DNA of 64,000 nt from an uncultured Polaribacter sp. Its GTDB lineage: Bacteria > Bacteroidota > Bacteroidia > Flavobacteriales > Flavobacteriaceae. A model generated the notes under the pieces. That model saw only the letters and a list, made by a program, of their open reading frames with translations, was not told where the DNA came from and searched no databases. The stretch spans positions 1 through 64,000 of the forward strand of contig CALSRX010000003.1 in assembly GCA_943788865.1 (NCBI GenBank), read 5' to 3'. The position numbers and the translations under genes were made by a program. Numbering within the stretch: position 1 is the first letter of the stretch; each line of letters starts with the position of its first letter. This document shows, one piece after another, positions 14,396 to 56,439 of the stretch.

Positions 14396-16006
14396 TTATT
14401 TTTTCTTTTTTAAAGTTGGATAACTTACTCCTAATTGTTCTAAATAGGTATCAAATTCTTTTTCGTTGTAATAAAATTTTTCTAGCTGAGATCTAAATTG
14501 TTTTTGTTTGTCTGTATTCAAATAGATGGGAGGTAAATCACTTTCAGTAATCATTGGTTTATAGGAAGTGTTTTTACGTTGTTCCTTATTAAAATAGTCT
14601 TTAGCTTCTTTTAATAGGTTTGGTTTTAATAAAAAATCAATAATTGTCATGGCTTCTACTTTAGCACCGGCAGTAACTCCTTTATGTGCAATCGGAGTTG
14701 CCATAGCAATGGCGTTACTCCAATGATGTCCTTGTAAACCAGGAATGTTAGAAGGGTATCTTAAGGTTACTGTTGGAACCGTCCAAGAGACATCGCCAAT
14801 ATCATCAGAACCACCACTTCTAGGTGTTTTAATTGGTAACCCTAATGGAATTAATTTTGTGCTTAAACCAGTAATTCTAGATGATTTTACTTCCGTTTGA
14901 ACTGCTTTTGCTAGTGTTTGGTCTTTTTCTGACCATTCTGGCAATCCAACAGTTTTGATATTTTCATACATGGTTTCTGCAATGGTTTTATTAAAATGTC
15001 TTGGCCAAGCAGTTCCTAGTATTTTTGATGTAACTTTTGTTTTTGTCATTAATGCAGCACCCTTTGCCACATCATTTGCTTCTTGATACATCTCCATAAT
15101 TCCATCATAGGTAACATCTCTAAAATAATACCAAATTGATGCTTTAGAAGGAACTACATTGGGTTGGTCACCAGCATCTGTAAAAATAGAATGCGATCTT
15201 TTTAAAGGATGTAAATGTTCTCTTTTATAATTCCAACCCACACTCATTAATTCGGCAGCATCTAAAGCACTTCTTCCACGCCAAGGCGAACCAGCAGAAT
15301 GGGCAGATTCTCCTTCAAAAGTATATTCTACAGAAATTAAACCAGTACCACTAGCGGCACCATAAGAGACACCCAAATTACTACTTACGTGGGTAAAAAT
15401 ACACATGTCTATCTTATCAAAAAGTCCGTCTCTAGTGTACCAAGCTTTTGCAGCAACCAATTCTTCTGCAATTCCCGGCCATAAAATAAGTGTTCCGCCA
15501 ATATTTTCACGTTCCATTATTTTTTTAACGGCTAAAACAGCAGTGATGTTTAAAGGAATACCAGAGTTATGACCTTCTCCATGCCCTGGAGCTCCATCAA
15601 CAATTGGTTTGTGGTAGGCAACTCCTGGATATTGTGATGCTTTCGGAATACAATCTACATCGCTTCCTAATGCAATTACAGGACCTTCTCCGTTTGACCA
15701 TTTGGCAAACCAAGCAGTCGGAATTCCAGATACAGATTCTTCAATTTCAAATCCGTTTTGCTTTAAAATTCCTGTTAAATATTTAGACGATTCATATTCT
15801 TGAAAACCAAGTTCTGAAAAACTAAATATTTTATCAACCATTACTTGAGATTGTTTATGGTTGGCAGTTACAATTTGTGAAACTTCTTTTTTTAAAGCCT
15901 CTACTTTTCTTTTGCTCCATTTTTTTTGAGCTTGAGTAAATTGAGTAGTTCCTAAAAAAAAGAAACATAAAATAAAGGCGGTTTTTTTGTTAAGACTTGT
16001 AAACAT
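14396..16006 (-). CDS. Secreted AbgB-like M20 amidohydrolase
   Basis: The 536-residue protein has a Sec signal peptide (hydrophobic residues 9-25, likely cleavage after TQAQ). It follows the M20D/AbgB pattern (aminobenzoyl-glutamate utilization protein B): GSDVDCIP, GEGHNSG, WPGIAEE, FTHVSS, a lid/dimerisation domain in the middle, and GGSDDIGDVSW with a final HHWSN. These hold the expected metal ligands (Asp, His, Glu, His). Known family members hydrolyse amide bonds of acyl or aryl amino acids; the true substrate here is unknown. It is the first gene of a two-gene operon with the D-aminoacylase-like lipoprotein. Confidence 0.85.
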   Translation of the reverse strand: MFTSLNKKTAFILCFFFLGTTQFTQAQKKWSKRKVEALKKEVSQIVTANHKQSQVMVDKIFSFSELGFQEYESSKYLTGILKQNGFEIEESVSGIPTAWFAKWSNGEGPVIALGSDVDCIPKASQYPGVAYHKPIVDGAPGHGEGHNSGIPLNITAVLAVKKIMERENIGGTLILWPGIAEELVAAKAWYTRDGLFDKIDMCIFTHVSSNLGVSYGAASGTGLISVEYTFEGESAHSAGSPWRGRSALDAAELMSVGWNYKREHLHPLKRSHSIFTDAGDQPNVVPSKASIWYYFRDVTYDGIMEMYQEANDVAKGAALMTKTKVTSKILGTAWPRHFNKTIAETMYENIKTVGLPEWSEKDQTLAKAVQTEVKSSRITGLSTKLIPLGLPIKTPRSGGSDDIGDVSWTVPTVTLRYPSNIPGLQGHHWSNAIAMATPIAHKGVTAGAKVEAMTIIDFLLKPNLLKEAKDYFNKEQRKNTSYKPMITESDLPPIYLNTDKQKQFRSQLEKFYYNEKEFDTYLEQLGVSYPTLKKKK

Positions 16007-16195: not shown

Positions 16196-16225
16196 TTAAA
16201 AAAAGCGAATTTCCGCTTTTTTTAA
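16196..16225. terminator. Bidirectional terminator-like hairpin
   Basis: TTAAAAAAAGCG pairs perfectly with CGCTTTTTTTAA (12 bp) around a 6-base loop, with A and T runs on opposite sides. It marks the border between the amidohydrolase operon and the accessory island and is 4 bp from the large palindrome. Confidence 0.75.
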
Positions 16226-16229
16226 TGTC

Positions 16230-16360
16230 TGCCAACGGTCAAGTATAAGAGCAGTAGCGGATAGATTGTTTTTTGCTTTCGAACTGAAAGATATTTTGAT
16301 TAAGCAAAAAACGGTTCAAGTTTTCACCTGAACCGCTATTGCTTTAATACCTTGTTGGCA
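16230..16360. repeat. 131-bp imperfect palindrome with TGCCAAC/GTTGGCA ends (attC-like)
   Basis: The ends TGCCAAC (16230-16236) and GTTGGCA (16354-16360) are perfectly complementary. Inside them AGCAGTAGCGG (16250-16260) pairs with CCGCTATTGCT (16333-16343) with one mismatch. The outer arms also align, with a 4-base bulge on the left. Within the loop GTTTTTTGCTT/AAGCAAAAAAC (11 bp) and CGGTTCA/TGAACCG (7 bp) form further stems, the last competing with the main stem for CCG. Bulged, long imperfect palindromes at cassette ends are typical of integron attC sites. However, the boxes here lack the exact RYYYAAC/GTTRRRY form, so attC-like is a description, not an identification. Confidence 0.6.
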
Positions 16361-16364
16361 TTAG

Positions 16365-16469
16365 TTATTCTTTTATGAATTTTGAAGAATAGATGCCTTT
16401 GTCATTATAGACTTTTATAATCAGTATACCTGTACCTATATCCTCAACATTCACGGTTTTTGAATATTA
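16365..16469 (-). pseudogene. Relic of a T9SS type A sorting domain
   Basis: After an in-frame stop, the minus strand reads KTVNVEDIGTGILIIKVYND and then KGIYSSKFIKE-stop at 16365. This is the last ~30 residues of a T9SS sorting domain: S/TGxYxxxV, a D/NxxG turn and KFIK end. Nothing upstream fits the rest of such a protein. The frame runs back into the stop codon of the membrane protein at 16467, so it is a fragment. Its stop codon lies 4 bp from the large palindrome. Confidence 0.65.
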
Positions 16470-17237
16470 ATTTTCTTCTCTCTTTCTAATTGCAAGTGGA
16501 ATAGCAAATTTTGGTAGAAATGAGATTAGATTAGTTACCAGTTTCAAAATGTAATTATAGATTTCTTTGTATATATAAAATGCGATAAGCAAAAGAAAAG
16601 CTCCAGCAATGCTCATAACACCTATTTTGATATATTCTCCAAAATTTTCATAATCTCCAACAATTTGTTGAGGAGCTAACCCGCTGAATACCTCCATTCC
16701 TGGAAAAATACTTAGTAACAATGCAGGCAATTCACTTAATGGTGCATACACAAAAGAACCCACTAGAGCAGCAAAGATTTGAAGTATACCAGCGTATAAA
16801 AACAACACGAACAGTAATTCACCTATTACCAAAATTAATTTCGGTAAGGTTTTTACAAAAACAAAGGATAACAAACCGTCATATTCGATGGTTTTCATTT
16901 GTTCTGTTCGCTTTTTTAAGACACTAAATAAAGCCCAAGCGGTTAAAATACTAATTGCGAAGCCAAGGATTAGACCAACAACAGCACCTGCTTTTTGACC
17001 ACCGCTTGAATAATCGTTTGAAATGTAGCTTTTTACAAAGCCAGAATCTCCAAATAATCCATCAAAGCTTAGATAAATTCCGCCTAGCAGAAGTCCAATT
17101 GCTAATACGGTAAGTAAAAGAGTAATAATGTTTTTAAAAACATTTCCATCATCCAGTTTCCCTAAAAAAGGAATAACTAATTTGTTGTAACCTTTATCAG
17201 CTATTGATAATGATACAAAAGGTAAATTTTTTTCCAT
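16467..17237 (-). CDS. Multi-pass inner-membrane protein of unknown function
   Basis: The 256-residue protein has about five hydrophobic segments (near residues 36-56, 84-105, 131-160, 168-178 and 205-224). A short basic tail ends IRKREEN, and conserved-looking polar stretches (DYSSGGQKAG, EYDGLLSF) lie between segments. No transporter or enzyme motif was recognised. It stands alone inside the island, in the same direction as the recombinase, and ends next to the T9SS relic. It could be cassette cargo (inference). Confidence 0.6.
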   Translation of the reverse strand: MEKNLPFVSLSIADKGYNKLVIPFLGKLDDGNVFKNIITLLLTVLAIGLLLGGIYLSFDGLFGDSGFVKSYISNDYSSGGQKAGAVVGLILGFAISILTAWALFSVLKKRTEQMKTIEYDGLLSFVFVKTLPKLILVIGELLFVLFLYAGILQIFAALVGSFVYAPLSELPALLLSIFPGMEVFSGLAPQQIVGDYENFGEYIKIGVMSIAGAFLLLIAFYIYKEIYNYILKLVTNLISFLPKFAIPLAIRKREEN

Positions 17238-17511
17238 TGTCTATAAATTTAAATTTTCCTACTCATAAGGCTTTTCAAAATACGCCCCGTTTTTTAGAGT
17301 GGGTTCTGGACTCCACTTTGAACTCTGCAATTATAATGTTAATTAATGCAAACTAGTTATATAGAGAACAAAGTTCTCGTTTATTGATTATTATTTCGGG
17401 ATAACAGGAACTTTTGGTCATTTTATCCAATTTAAGTGATTGCTTTTTCCATAAGAAAATGTGCAATTTTTTTCCATAGCTAAAAATATAAAAAAAAATT
17501 AATATAATAAT
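17238..17511. other. Non-coding gap between membrane protein and recombinase
   Basis: I find no ORF. The gap contains a 6-bp inverted repeat GAGAAC-AAA-GTTCTC (17364-17378) and a weak stem AGTGG/CCACT near 17300, and it is otherwise A+T-rich. It may be decayed cassette sequence. Confidence 0.3.
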
Positions 17512-18675
17512 CTATAAATATTGGTTTTCTGAATTCAACATCGGTCTATTTGCAGATGCATTTTTTTCTAAGTTCATTAAAATAGTATCTAATGGACTTT
17601 TAATTTCTAATAAATCTTTCTTAGCAACATGTGTATAAATCATGGTGGTTTCTGGCCTTTCATGACCCAATAACTCTTGAATATGACGCAAACCAATTCC
17701 ATTTTCTAACAAATGAGTGGCATAAGAATGTCTTAAAGTATGTGGTGTAACATTTTTTTGTATGCTGGCCAACTTTGTAGATTTATGTAAAAATTTTCTA
17801 ATACTACTTTCAGAATAGGGCTTACAAATACCTCCTTCAACAAAATAACATGTTGGATTATAGGTGCTAAAATAGTTTTGTAATAAAGGTAAAAGACTGT
17901 CAGCTAAAATAACATACCTGTCTTTTCTCCCTTTTCCATTTTGTATAAATAACTGTCTTCTATTTATATCAATATTTTTAAGTTCTAATTTTATCAACTC
18001 ACTAATTCTTAATCTACATGAATAAATTAAGGCAATAATAGCCCTATGTTTCAAATTTTTAGTAACTCTAATAACTTCTATAACTTCTTCTTGAGACAAA
18101 ACATTAGGTAATTGCCTAGATTTTTTGGGTCTTTCTAAGTGTAAATTATTAATTTTTGTTTCTGGATAAAAAACAATAAAAATCTTTATTGCACTAATAA
18201 ATTGGCGTTGAGAACTTATAGAATAATTTCTTTCTAGAAATACTGTCTCTATAAACTCTTCTACATTTCTATTGGTAAGATCTTCTAAGGCTATTTTAGT
18301 ATGAAAATTAATAAAATCAGCTACAAAAAAAGTATAAGTATTTAGGGTGCTTTGGCTGTACCTTTTCCCTTTTAAATACAAATAAAAGCTGTTTAATAAC
18401 GTTTTTTGAGCTTCGGTTAGGTTTCTTTGAAAAACCTTTTTACTAGAGATCTTGTTGGTATCAACTTTTGTAATTCCTTCAAATAAAGTTACAATCAGGG
18501 CTAAGTTTTTTGGAGTATCTTTTAAGTACCAAGACTTTAAAGAAGTGCTCCAACGAACACCATTAACAGTCTTAATGATATCAATTAATTTCTGATGATA
18601 CTTAAATTGTATAAGCAATTGTTTACTTTTTCTATGAACCTTTTGTTCAAGAAAAATTGTAGGTATTTTTTCCAT
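17512..18675 (-). CDS. Tyrosine recombinase (Xer/integron-integrase-like)
   Basis: This 387-residue recombinase has a complete catalytic set: Arg223 (LRISE), Lys248 (GKGRKDR), His312-x-x-Arg315 (HTLRHSYATHLL), His338 (ELLGHE) and nucleophile Tyr347 (IYTHV). Residues ~88-180 form the SAM-like core-binding domain (KRYSQSTLNTY). An extra N-terminal domain of about 80 residues (RWSTSLKSWYLKD) precedes it; such extensions are common in Bacteroidota integrases. It therefore looks active. Its ATG lies 20 bp from a 29-bp repeat that recurs at the 3' end of recJ, the position expected of an att site beside its own integrase gene. It is unlikely to be housekeeping XerC/XerD because of the extension and the context. 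Confidence 0.88.
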   Translation of the reverse strand: MEKIPTIFLEQKVHRKSKQLLIQFKYHQKLIDIIKTVNGVRWSTSLKSWYLKDTPKNLALIVTLFEGITKVDTNKISSKKVFQRNLTEAQKTLLNSFYLYLKGKRYSQSTLNTYTFFVADFINFHTKIALEDLTNRNVEEFIETVFLERNYSISSQRQFISAIKIFIVFYPETKINNLHLERPKKSRQLPNVLSQEEVIEVIRVTKNLKHRAIIALIYSCRLRISELIKLELKNIDINRRQLFIQNGKGRKDRYVILADSLLPLLQNYFSTYNPTCYFVEGGICKPYSESSIRKFLHKSTKLASIQKNVTPHTLRHSYATHLLENGIGLRHIQELLGHERPETTMIYTHVAKKDLLEIKSPLDTILMNLEKNASANRPMLNSENQYL

Positions 18676-18752: not shown

Positions 18753-19349
18753 TTAGCTTTCTGCAAATTTTATTAATGGTTTTATATTACCATTGTCAGC
18801 TTCTCTTAATGCTATTATATACTCTTTTCTTGTTTCATCTGCTCTAACCATATTTGACTTGTGCCAACTGAAAAGTTCTTTTCCGAAAATAGATTCAATA
18901 ATTATATCAGCCATCATTCTTGAGTGTCTGCCATTTCCATTAGGAAAGCAGTGAATTGCTACGATTCTATGTTTAAATCTAATAGCAATTTCTTTAGGTG
19001 GATAAGTCTTGTTTTCTAACCAATATTTAGTGTCATCAATTAGATCTTTCAGTTTTATACCAATTTGAGTCCATTTTATTCCAATGTTTTTGTCACTTTT
19101 TCTAAATTCACCTGCCCATTTCCAAACATCACTGTACATTTTTTTGTGCAAGTTTTTAATAAACTTTTCGGTTAAAATATTTTCAGGCTTTAATTTTGAA
19201 TAAATAGTCCATTCAACAGCTTTCTCAATGTTCAATTGCTCAAACTCATCTAGTTCTTCTTGAGTGGTAATTGACTTTATTTTAAGACCTTCTTTTTCTT
19301 CTTCGTCTAAAGGTGTTTGGCCATTTTTATAATTTAGGTTTAATCCCAT
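18753..19349 (-). CDS. Mobile mystery protein B (Fic/DOC domain protein)
   Basis: The 198-residue protein has the Fic core: helices around MYSDVWKWAGEFRKS and the catalytic loop His133-CFPN-Gly138-Asn-Gly-Arg141 followed by HSR. Fic proteins move AMP, other nucleotides or phosphate groups onto target proteins, often as toxins. Where AMP-transferring Fic loops have Asp/Glu before GNGR (HxFx[D/E]GNGR), this one has Asn137, so its chemistry may differ. The start overlaps the mystery A stop by 10 bp, which implies translational coupling. This A-then-B order is the hallmark of the TIGR02612/TIGR02613 pair, usually found on mobile DNA. A toxin role is inference. Confidence 0.85.
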   Translation of the reverse strand: MGLNLNYKNGQTPLDEEEKEGLKIKSITTQEELDEFEQLNIEKAVEWTIYSKLKPENILTEKFIKNLHKKMYSDVWKWAGEFRKSDKNIGIKWTQIGIKLKDLIDDTKYWLENKTYPPKEIAIRFKHRIVAIHCFPNGNGRHSRMMADIIIESIFGKELFSWHKSNMVRADETRKEYIIALREADNGNIKPLIKFAES

Positions 19350-19801
19350 AACGACTTTCTCATTTCTCGTTTTATTTCATCAGCAAGCTCTTTTATGGTT
19401 TTGGTTATCTTTTCATCTCCAATTCCTTGGTCCTCTAATTTCATGTTTTGGTTGGTTCTTAAAACAATTTTTTTAGCCAGTTTTTCAGCCTTTAAGTTGA
19501 TTAGATTATTAATGGTTCCGTCTTTTGGCACAAAGCCATAAACAAGTTTTAAATCGAGAGCATTACCTACCTCCTTTAAAGAATTTATTGATATTGAGCC
19601 TTTTGCTTCACTATCTTCAATTTTATTCACACCTTGCTTTGTTACACCTAATTTGGTCCCAAGTTGAACCATTGTCATGTTAAGAGTAGTTCTGATTGTA
19701 TTTATCCAGCCTTTATCTGGCACCAGGACCATTTCTGTCTTTTGAAATGGTTTTAATTTTTGATCCAATTGTTCAATTAAAAGTTGTTTCTTATTTCTCA
19801 T
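19340..19801 (-). CDS. Mobile mystery protein A (HTH DNA-binding protein)
   Basis: The 153-residue protein carries an Xre/Cro-type helix-turn-helix around residues 35-75 (MVQLGTKLGVTKQGVNKIED, then SISINSLKEVGNALDLKLVY). Such proteins are the constant upstream partner of the Fic-type mobile mystery protein B. By analogy with toxin-antitoxin pairs it probably represses its own promoter and may counter the Fic protein. A palindrome GTAAAC-TTAATT-GTTTAC overlapping its promoter is the likely binding site. No obvious Fic-inhibitory (S/T)xxxE(G/N) helix could be picked out, so the antitoxin role stays open. Confidence 0.85.
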   Translation of the reverse strand: MRNKKQLLIEQLDQKLKPFQKTEMVLVPDKGWINTIRTTLNMTMVQLGTKLGVTKQGVNKIEDSEAKGSISINSLKEVGNALDLKLVYGFVPKDGTINNLINLKAEKLAKKIVLRTNQNMKLEDQGIGDEKITKTIKELADEIKREMRKSLWD

Positions 19802-55797: not shown

Positions 55798-56439
55798 ATG
55801 CATTTTTTACCCGAAAAAATAGAGGACTATGTTGTAAAACATACTCAAAATGAACCTCAAATCTTAAAAGAATTATCTAAAGAAACTTGGCAAAAAGTAT
55901 TGAATCCAAGAATGTTAAGTGGTGATTTTCAAGGCAGAGTATTGTCTATGCTTTCAAAATTAGTTCAACCTAAAAGCGTTTTAGAAATTGGCACATATAC
56001 TGGTTATTCTGCGTTGTGTATTGCAGAAGGATTGCATCCAGAAGGGATCATACACACCATAGATAAAAACGAAGAACTGTATAGTTTGCAAGAAAAATAT
56101 TTTAAAAAATCAGGGTATCAGAATCAGATTCAACAATATGTTGGAAATGCATTAGACATTATTCCAACAATGAATACAACCTTCGATTTGGTGTTTATAG
56201 ATGCAGACAAATCAAACTATATCAATTACTTTCATTTGATTATGGAGAAGATGAATTCTGGCGGAATTATTTTATCCGATAACGTTTTGTGGAGTGGAAA
56301 AGTAATAGAAGAGCTTAACGAAAAAGATATGGATACTAAAGTATTGCTAGCATACAATACACTATTAAATTCTGATGATAGGTTAGAAACTGTTTTGTTA
56401 CCAATACGAGACGGGTTGACAATTAGTAGAGTAAAGTAG
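55798..56439 (+). CDS. SAM-dependent O-methyltransferase
   Basis: The 213-residue class I methyltransferase belongs to the catechol/caffeoyl-CoA O-methyltransferase group. Motif I is VLEIGTYTGYSALCIAEGL, then HTIDKNEEL, and the metal/substrate motif is DLVFIDADKSNY. Members methylate small phenolics or, as TrmR/YrrM, modified wobble uridine; the latter is plausible for a conserved copy but not shown. It starts 5 bp after the ZAS protein gene, so it is in the sigma operon. Confidence 0.87.
   Translation: MHFLPEKIEDYVVKHTQNEPQILKELSKETWQKVLNPRMLSGDFQGRVLSMLSKLVQPKSVLEIGTYTGYSALCIAEGLHPEGIIHTIDKNEELYSLQEKYFKKSGYQNQIQQYVGNALDIIPTMNTTFDLVFIDADKSNYINYFHLIMEKMNSGGIILSDNVLWSGKVIEELNEKDMDTKVLLAYNTLLNSDDRLETVLLPIRDGLTISRVK

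Follow-up and report, generated by a model that had tools for sequence, protein, structure and literature searches.

Integrons are a main gene-capture route, and in surveys they are identified from the IntI-specific domain of the integrase together with the canonical attC site, whose boxes follow the consensus RYYYAAC/GTTRRRY. Complementary flanks between successive sites are a mark of integron cassettes. In the excerpts of the literature drawn on here, the IntI-specific domain around patch III is given as the defining feature of IntI (PMC9668308), the recombination boundary is written G|TTRRRY (PMC9892861), and strand choice at canonical attC sites is attributed first to the extrahelical base of the R''-L'' arm (PMC2727003). 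The same kind of partial text lists Bacteroidota among the integron-bearing phyla (PMC8618304, PMC9668308); for Bacteroidetes proper, the IntegronFinder 2.0 excerpt (PMC9024848) gives In0 elements in its previous survey, together with a single complete integron in Salinibacter ruber. We found no description of the system reported below among the matches listed from open-licence full text.

The window, that is, the whole 64,000-nucleotide stretch of Polaribacter DNA analysed here, contains a 131-bp palindrome that is most likely, from its sequence and from arrays in relatives, an attC-type site. It very probably belongs to a chromosomal integron run by the tyrosine recombinase encoded 1.2 kb away. 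The features of this locus are as follows, all on the minus strand.

16230–16360, minus strand: attC-type site (single-stranded DNA folds; covariance model match)
16223–16235, minus strand: putative post-crossover sequence beyond the attC, TTGGCAGACATTA, assigned by sequence pattern
16236–17352, minus strand: predicted single cassette of 1117 bp, from the TT that follows the G of attI to the crossover G of the attC
16467–17237, minus strand: cassette gene of 256 aa, an open reading frame with no Pfam family at E 0.01
17252–17321, minus strand: DUF805 RNA (RF03081; 79.1 bits against a gathering score of 51.1), a structured leader in the cassette lying 14 nt ahead of the gene
17351–17397, minus strand: predicted attI, a small inverted repeat followed by ATATAACTA-G|TT, assigned by the attI motif and by comparison of first cassettes across loci
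17512–18675, minus strand: integrase of 387 aa, ~1.2 kb from the palindrome, with an N-terminal domain (residues ~1–82) followed by an Xer/IntI-like core

The ends of the palindrome are exact, with TGCCAAC at 16230–16236 and GTTGGCA at 16354–16360, as the first-pass annotation had described, and its AAC..GTT core spans 16234–16356. The site is naturally read on the minus strand, which is the cassette top strand, and the plus strand is the folding "bottom" strand. The second stem and competing inner stems that had been proposed are present, as is an unpaired spacer, and both single strands of 16220–16370 fold better than their shuffled counterparts (z = -5.2 for the plus strand and -4.6 for the minus strand; none of 200 dinucleotide shuffles was as good in either case). 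The bulges claimed for the second stem appear in the free DNA fold of the palindrome but disappear when the stem is aligned to the family model, where, read from the sequence, it runs for 18 positions with one mismatch, two G.T wobbles, and no bulge. The relic reading frame said to stop 4 bp from the element did not hold up, since only a TAA at 16223–16225 on the plus strand is found there and no plus-strand frame of at least 50 aa is listed as ending at it; the gene belonging to the site lies instead on the minus strand (16467–17237) and ends 106 bp before the site. Searched by BLAST against phages and plasmids, the element gave short chance matches only.

Homologues of the element were found by BLAST in same-genus genomes, several per genome in some of them, and the stretches fetched from these genomes hold dense one-strand arrays of sites measuring ~125 nt from AAC to GTT. 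We built the covariance model R1 on an alignment of 53 sites that excluded the window copy and included one other site of its own genome. The alignment shows a 16-pair stem with two-sided changes in 10 of the 16 pairs, and two stem positions are near-constant G.U on the modelled (bottom) strand, in 51/53 and 45/53 sites. The window site, absent from the building set, matches R1 at 66.8 bits (E 9.7e-10). A second match in the window at 56166 (19.1 bits) was taken as chance.

Across 201 sites of the family, AAC and GTT are kept, the base after GTT is a purine in 197, and position +8 is an A in 197. The canonical boxes rarely fit, GTTRRRY in 13 sites and RYYYAAC in 12, so that the departure from this consensus remarked on in the first-pass annotation, which had used the same pattern, extends to the family. 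The central spacer measures 6 x 3 nt in 145 of the 184 sites aligned for it and is unpaired, as in canonical attC sites. The extrahelical base of the canonical site is absent from the L''-R'' arm at L-stem positions 3–14 in 183/184 sites, and a bulge on the opposite arm of the L stem, mostly a T, is present in 37/184. G.T pairs outnumber T.G pairs by 399 to 38 in the same 184 sites. In the 112 sites that were modelled as circles, the pairing continues as far as position 11; 94 of them have a T.G wobble at position 8, and the bottom strand is the better folder in 110, by a mean of 4.5 kcal/mol; these 112 sites had been preselected for complementary ends (≥5/6), so the first six positions of the R stem are no independent evidence. 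The bottom strand may be the recombining one, as it is in canonical attC sites. Because the canonical extrahelical base is missing, another polarity signal would have to act here, and the wobbles and the spacer are the candidates.

A tblastn search with the recombinase of the window gave at least 514 relatives, of which we retained the 80 best loci, each bearing a Bacteroidota title; the nearest named integrase relatives among the matches listed come from Polaribacter and other Flavobacteriaceae. R1 gives 231 matches in these 80 loci, 227 of them on the minus strand when each locus is oriented with its integrase on the plus strand; since the model represents the bottom strand, the top strand of the sites runs with the integrase. 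After the 19 weakest matches (26.8–33.9 bits; 18 downstream, 1 upstream, 4 on the other strand) had been dropped, 210 of the 212 retained matches lie downstream of the integrase, in 331 kb of sequence, vs. two upstream in 710 kb. In 48/80 loci a site lies downstream, and the median distance to the first one is 0.84 kb. One locus (L107) has an upstream match only, and the 31 loci without a retained match have less than 2.2 kb of contig left, except L089 (4.8 kb) and L092 (10 kb). Many contigs stop a few hundred bases past the integrase gene, as expected ahead of a repeat array.

Behind the integrase stop codon lies the motif ATATAACnA-G|TT with a small inverted repeat ahead of it, taken here as the attI. 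Of 77 loci, 63 have the motif within 400 nt, the 77 control stretches have none, and conservation drops immediately past the GTT. In 42 of 49 loci, the window included (10/11), the bases after a GTT behind the integrase correspond to the 5' flank of the first attC found at nine or more of 11 positions. This GTT stands 28–202 nt after the stop in 33 of the 42 loci and 312–7118 nt from it in the other nine, in which the first site found is probably not that of the first cassette. The placement of sites and attI leads us to infer that this recombinase is the enzyme acting on the sites.

The sites are also related to one another in the way of cassette ends. We compared the 3' flank of each site with the 5' flank of the next, counting a pair as complementary when at least five of the first six positions agreed, and with nine sites left out for ends other than AAC/GTT and three for incomplete flanks, 135 of 145 successive pairs were complementary (p 6e-69). 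The controls gave 11/200 for the flanks of the same site, 4/145 for the wrong-way comparison, and 239/5000 for random pairs. The longest array lies on the finished chromosome of G016, where 77 sites on one strand occupy 137 kb (2169083–2305851) downstream of an integrase at 2161461–2162615, the first site being 6.5 kb behind it. Neighbouring sites are complementary in 57 of the 60 testable pairs, and 60 of the 63 cassettes examined have their longest open reading frame on the cassette strand. A second cluster of sites in this genome, near 2.02–2.04 Mb, lies on the far side of the integrase, more than 110 kb ahead of it, and no integrase adjoining that cluster was found. In G001, an integrase and an array occur together at two loci, with 44 sites on one strand in 160 kb.

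Two stretches were found as near-identical copies, 1652 bp repeated 108 kb away in G001 and 1220 bp repeated 1.6 kb away in G016, each with one difference. In both, the identity is bounded by the GTT of the flanking sites and the neighbours beyond differ; two of three near-identical pairs were followed to their ends in this way. Such copies with breaks at sites are the indirect evidence seen for integrase-dependent cassette movement. No cassette common to the G016 and G001 arrays was found at the threshold (64 vs. 39 cassettes, with 76 of the 77 G016 sites used), so recent exchange between those two genomes is unsupported. The genes carried are varied: 57 of the 58 listed cassette reading frames of G016 were scanned and gave 47 Pfam families, none of them in more than two members. 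One G016 cassette gene is a reverse transcriptase of the defence type DRT/UG20, and two G016 cassette proteins fall in the Pfam Beta-lactamase family PF00144.

The first-pass annotation had suggested a Bacteroidota variant of folded recombination sites within the island of a tyrosine recombinase and had asked whether copies follow short reading frames in arrays. The one-way arrays downstream of the recombinase support the suggestion, and the copies do end one-gene cassettes that run in one direction behind it with end complementarity of the integron type. Neither of the outcomes that had been named as contrary, a spread unrelated to gene ends or recombinases and the pattern of a transcribed RNA, appeared in the 80 integrase loci; scattered single sites also exist.

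The integrase itself is a tyrosine recombinase in which R223, K248, H312, R315, H338, and Y347, which we take to be the active-site residues, are invariant in 75/75 full-length rows, the window included. The IntI-specific insertion is absent from the alignment, 19 residues standing where IntI4 has 62. Correspondingly, the spacing from KGxK[DN]R to HxLRH is 58 in 68 of the 72 relatives having both motifs (81 were examined; the other four have 57 or 59) vs. 100–101 in the 12 canonical IntI proteins having both (13 examined). The IntI model TIGR02249 scores the window protein at 201.4 bits in two pieces and does not reach its cut-off of 265, whereas the positive control, a Vibrio phage IntI, reaches 494.4 bits. 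In a 37-row tree, with 20 of the 81 relatives and only five Xer rows on long branches, the family forms one group (99/98) that adjoins IntI (92/85), and on this tree it appears nearer to IntI than to XerA. By these defining features, the platform lies outside the IntI family and canonical attC.

Residues 1–82 are predicted to form a domain of five strands and two helices. The available text on HARP describes a five-stranded sheet with two helices in fork-remodelling enzymes (PMC4666394), and six of the top eight Foldseek rows for the N-terminal domain are XPB or SMARCAL1 HARP, at E 0.07–0.57. Alignment with VIA-align gives Z up to 7.3 with unrelated folds (CASTOR1 and eIF1 rows) tied, Pfam HARP (PF07443) scores 15.9–18.9 bits in 3/10 proteins, below its cut-off of 25, and a further sequence comparison to HARP gives E 0.69. 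The domain may be HARP-like, which we treat as a lead and not a result.

The window platform holds one cassette. Its start matches its end flank at 10/11 positions, with none of 100 shuffles as good, and the predicted attI crossover lies between 17353 and 17352. Beyond the attC, the sequence TTGGCAGACATTA (16223–16235) has a purine after GTT and an A at +8, as cassette starts have, and may be either what remains of a lost next cassette or the outer end of the array. The cassette gene was found in its own genome only (1/58) and not in the 57 other same-genus genomes searched. The DUF805 RNA leader at the cassette head appears to travel with this Pfam-less gene; as no Rfam family matches in seven array loci (147 kb), the RNA is apparently not a regular component of cassettes. 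The window integrase has R221, two positions away from the catalytic R223, where all 74 other aligned relatives have G, and because of this residue and the one-cassette array, this copy may be inactive. Just before the integrase, at 18753–19801 on the minus strand, a Fic-domain gene and a helix-turn-helix gene overlap by 10 bp and look like a toxin-antitoxin pair. Elsewhere in the same genome R1 finds sites far apart and mostly single, 12 places at E ≤0.1 with the window site included. The 11 further ones are scattered over contigs C1, C2, C4, and C5 of the assembly, only part of them with a matching cassette start, and could be insertions outside attI or the remains of arrays.

The distribution across genomes bears on the strongest alternative, that a canonical IntI encoded elsewhere moves the sites in trans and the neighbouring Xer-like recombinase is a bystander. 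We regard this as improbable. The integrase is present in 39/58 same-genus genomes at E 1e-60, and sites are present in at least 81 of 296 genomes of an even sample of the phylum at E ≤1e-4, these counts being floors because scoring was limited to 11 candidates in each genome. Within f1, the family of the window, the integrase accompanies sites in 17 of 18 genomes and is present in 5 of the 12 without sites (Fisher p 0.0025); the exception, G289, has sites and no integrase at the threshold. Among 19 genomes from the rest of the order and class, no association is seen (7/11 with sites, 6/8 without; p 1.0), and many of the integrase matches there are weaker and may be other Xer-like proteins. 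Canonical IntI was sought over the phylum with TIGR02249 at E 1e-20; an earlier setting of E 1e-40 in the 58 same-genus genomes left the controls empty too and was uninformative. Canonical IntI scores above the cut-off in 85/296 genomes and in 22/81 of those with sites, which speaks for the trans reading, and an excerpt of PMC9892861 reports that IntI1 recombined one Polaribacter phage attC. However, 21 of those 22 genomes are outside the class: canonical IntI is found in 0/30 genomes of the window's family, and among the 11 further genomes of the class that bear sites it is found in one (G093). Across the full sample, the presence of sites is independent of that of canonical IntI (p 0.77), and no R1 match was obtained in 13 canonical IntI loci, which reach only ~1.5 kb to each side (46 kb in total). 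Furthermore, the sites are placed behind the window-type recombinase, at a conserved attI. Outside the class, 21 of the 52 genomes with model matches also carry canonical IntI, and the matches there may belong to ordinary integrons. Our claim is firm in the window's family and looser beyond the class.

It is very improbable that the element is instead a transcribed structured RNA or a terminator after genes. The conserved covarying stem does sit at gene 3' ends, and the RNA fold of the window palindrome is strong (z = -5.9, with 0/200 shuffles as good), but complementarity of flanks across genes, exact gene-plus-site copies, and one-sided clustering behind an integrase are unexpected for an RNA. 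Neither the window site nor the seven array loci contain a match at the gathering score of any Rfam family, and the strand favoured by the conserved wobbles is the one opposite to the gene transcript. Least credible of all is a palindromic transposable repeat (MITE/REP-like) spread by an IS200/IS605-type transposase or similar, which would fit the single copies scattered in the window's own genome but not long arrays on one strand whose sites are regularly spaced and have variable yet complementary ends, beside a tyrosine recombinase and attI that are fixed.

The integron reading, in which the neighbouring tyrosine recombinase acts on the palindrome as an attC-type site, also suggests how such a platform would recombine. 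The platform appears to work like an integron, the platform features examined by comparison being present. An excised cassette would be a circle in which the two ends meet, so that its start, GTT-R-N6-A, could pair with the box left of AAC. The bottom strand would then form a hairpin with an R stem of ~11 positions beyond AAC/GTT, a 6x3-nt spacer, and an L stem of 16–18 bp. The integrase would join the folded bottom strand at G|TT to a double-stranded attI or to another site, and replication would resolve the joined product. The choice of strand may come from the asymmetric G.T wobbles and the lopsided spacer, instead of the canonical extrahelical bases, and recognition of the folded DNA may fall to the HARP-like domain at the N terminus, standing in for the IntI-specific domain that is missing. 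Recombination by this platform is deduced here from sequence comparison.

On a wider scale, we lean towards the view that Flavobacteria and their relatives have a widespread integron class of their own, with an integrase lineage next to IntI, a HARP-like fork-reading domain in place of the IntI-specific one, folded sites whose polarity resides in wobbles and spacer, superintegrons, and cassettes that reach phages. If so, a search designed around IntI and canonical attC would be expected to overlook these superintegrons. Should the integrase act as proposed, folded-site recombination would be independent of the IntI domain, the origin of integrons from Xer-like recombinases would become directly testable, and a large cassette pool in marine bacteria would be opened up.

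One R1 site (62 bits) lies at 14503–14624 in the Polaribacter phage P12002L, and a cassette start at 15197 matches it at 11/11 positions, with one annotated gene, gp24, inside. This lytic phage thus holds a complete single-gene cassette, gp24 and its site, at 14503–15197 (L222). The accessible part of PMC9892861 describes for P12002L a cluster with two methyltransferase genes and the activity of IntI1 on one attC site; at the annotated P12002L methyltransferase genes, R1 finds nothing above chance (13 bits, E 2.2, 310 bp from gp54).

Compared with known systems, the best or equal-best named family for the integrase is that of archaeal XerA, NCBIfam NF040815 ("site-specific tyrosine recombinase/integron integrase"), with 201.3 bits. 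All 66 aligned family members match it at E 1e-10, and NCBI has given its name to some plasmid relatives. However, the window protein is below the curated cut-off of 220, and the alignment with XerA begins at residue 92, past the N-terminal domain. The HARP/XPB damage-recognition domains (SMARCAL1 4o66; XPB 6p66 and 6p4f) share five strands and two helices with that domain but differ in the weak sequence likeness, with the best Foldseek E at 0.07 and CASTOR1/eIF1 tied at Z. In the chromosomal integrons of Treponema, as far as the available portion of PMC3607928 describes them, the integrase is likewise transcribed towards attI, along the cassette direction; they have intI genes, and in one species a GTTAGGT box, whereas the window family is without the IntI domain. 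Relative to IntI integrons (TIGR02249; the V. cholerae superintegron and class 1), the window family has no IntI-specific insertion and has an extra N-terminal domain. Its sites, unlike canonical attC, seldom show GTTRRRY/RYYYAAC, have no extrahelical base in the L stem (L''-R'' arm), and carry the A at +8 that gives a wobble in the R stem. In other respects the two agree: both have a tyrosine integrase, an adjoining attI, and cassettes in one direction; both have folded sites at the cassette ends, a G|TT boundary, and a cassette start complementary to the 5' box of the site; and in both the bottom strand folds better and the arrays reach superintegron size.
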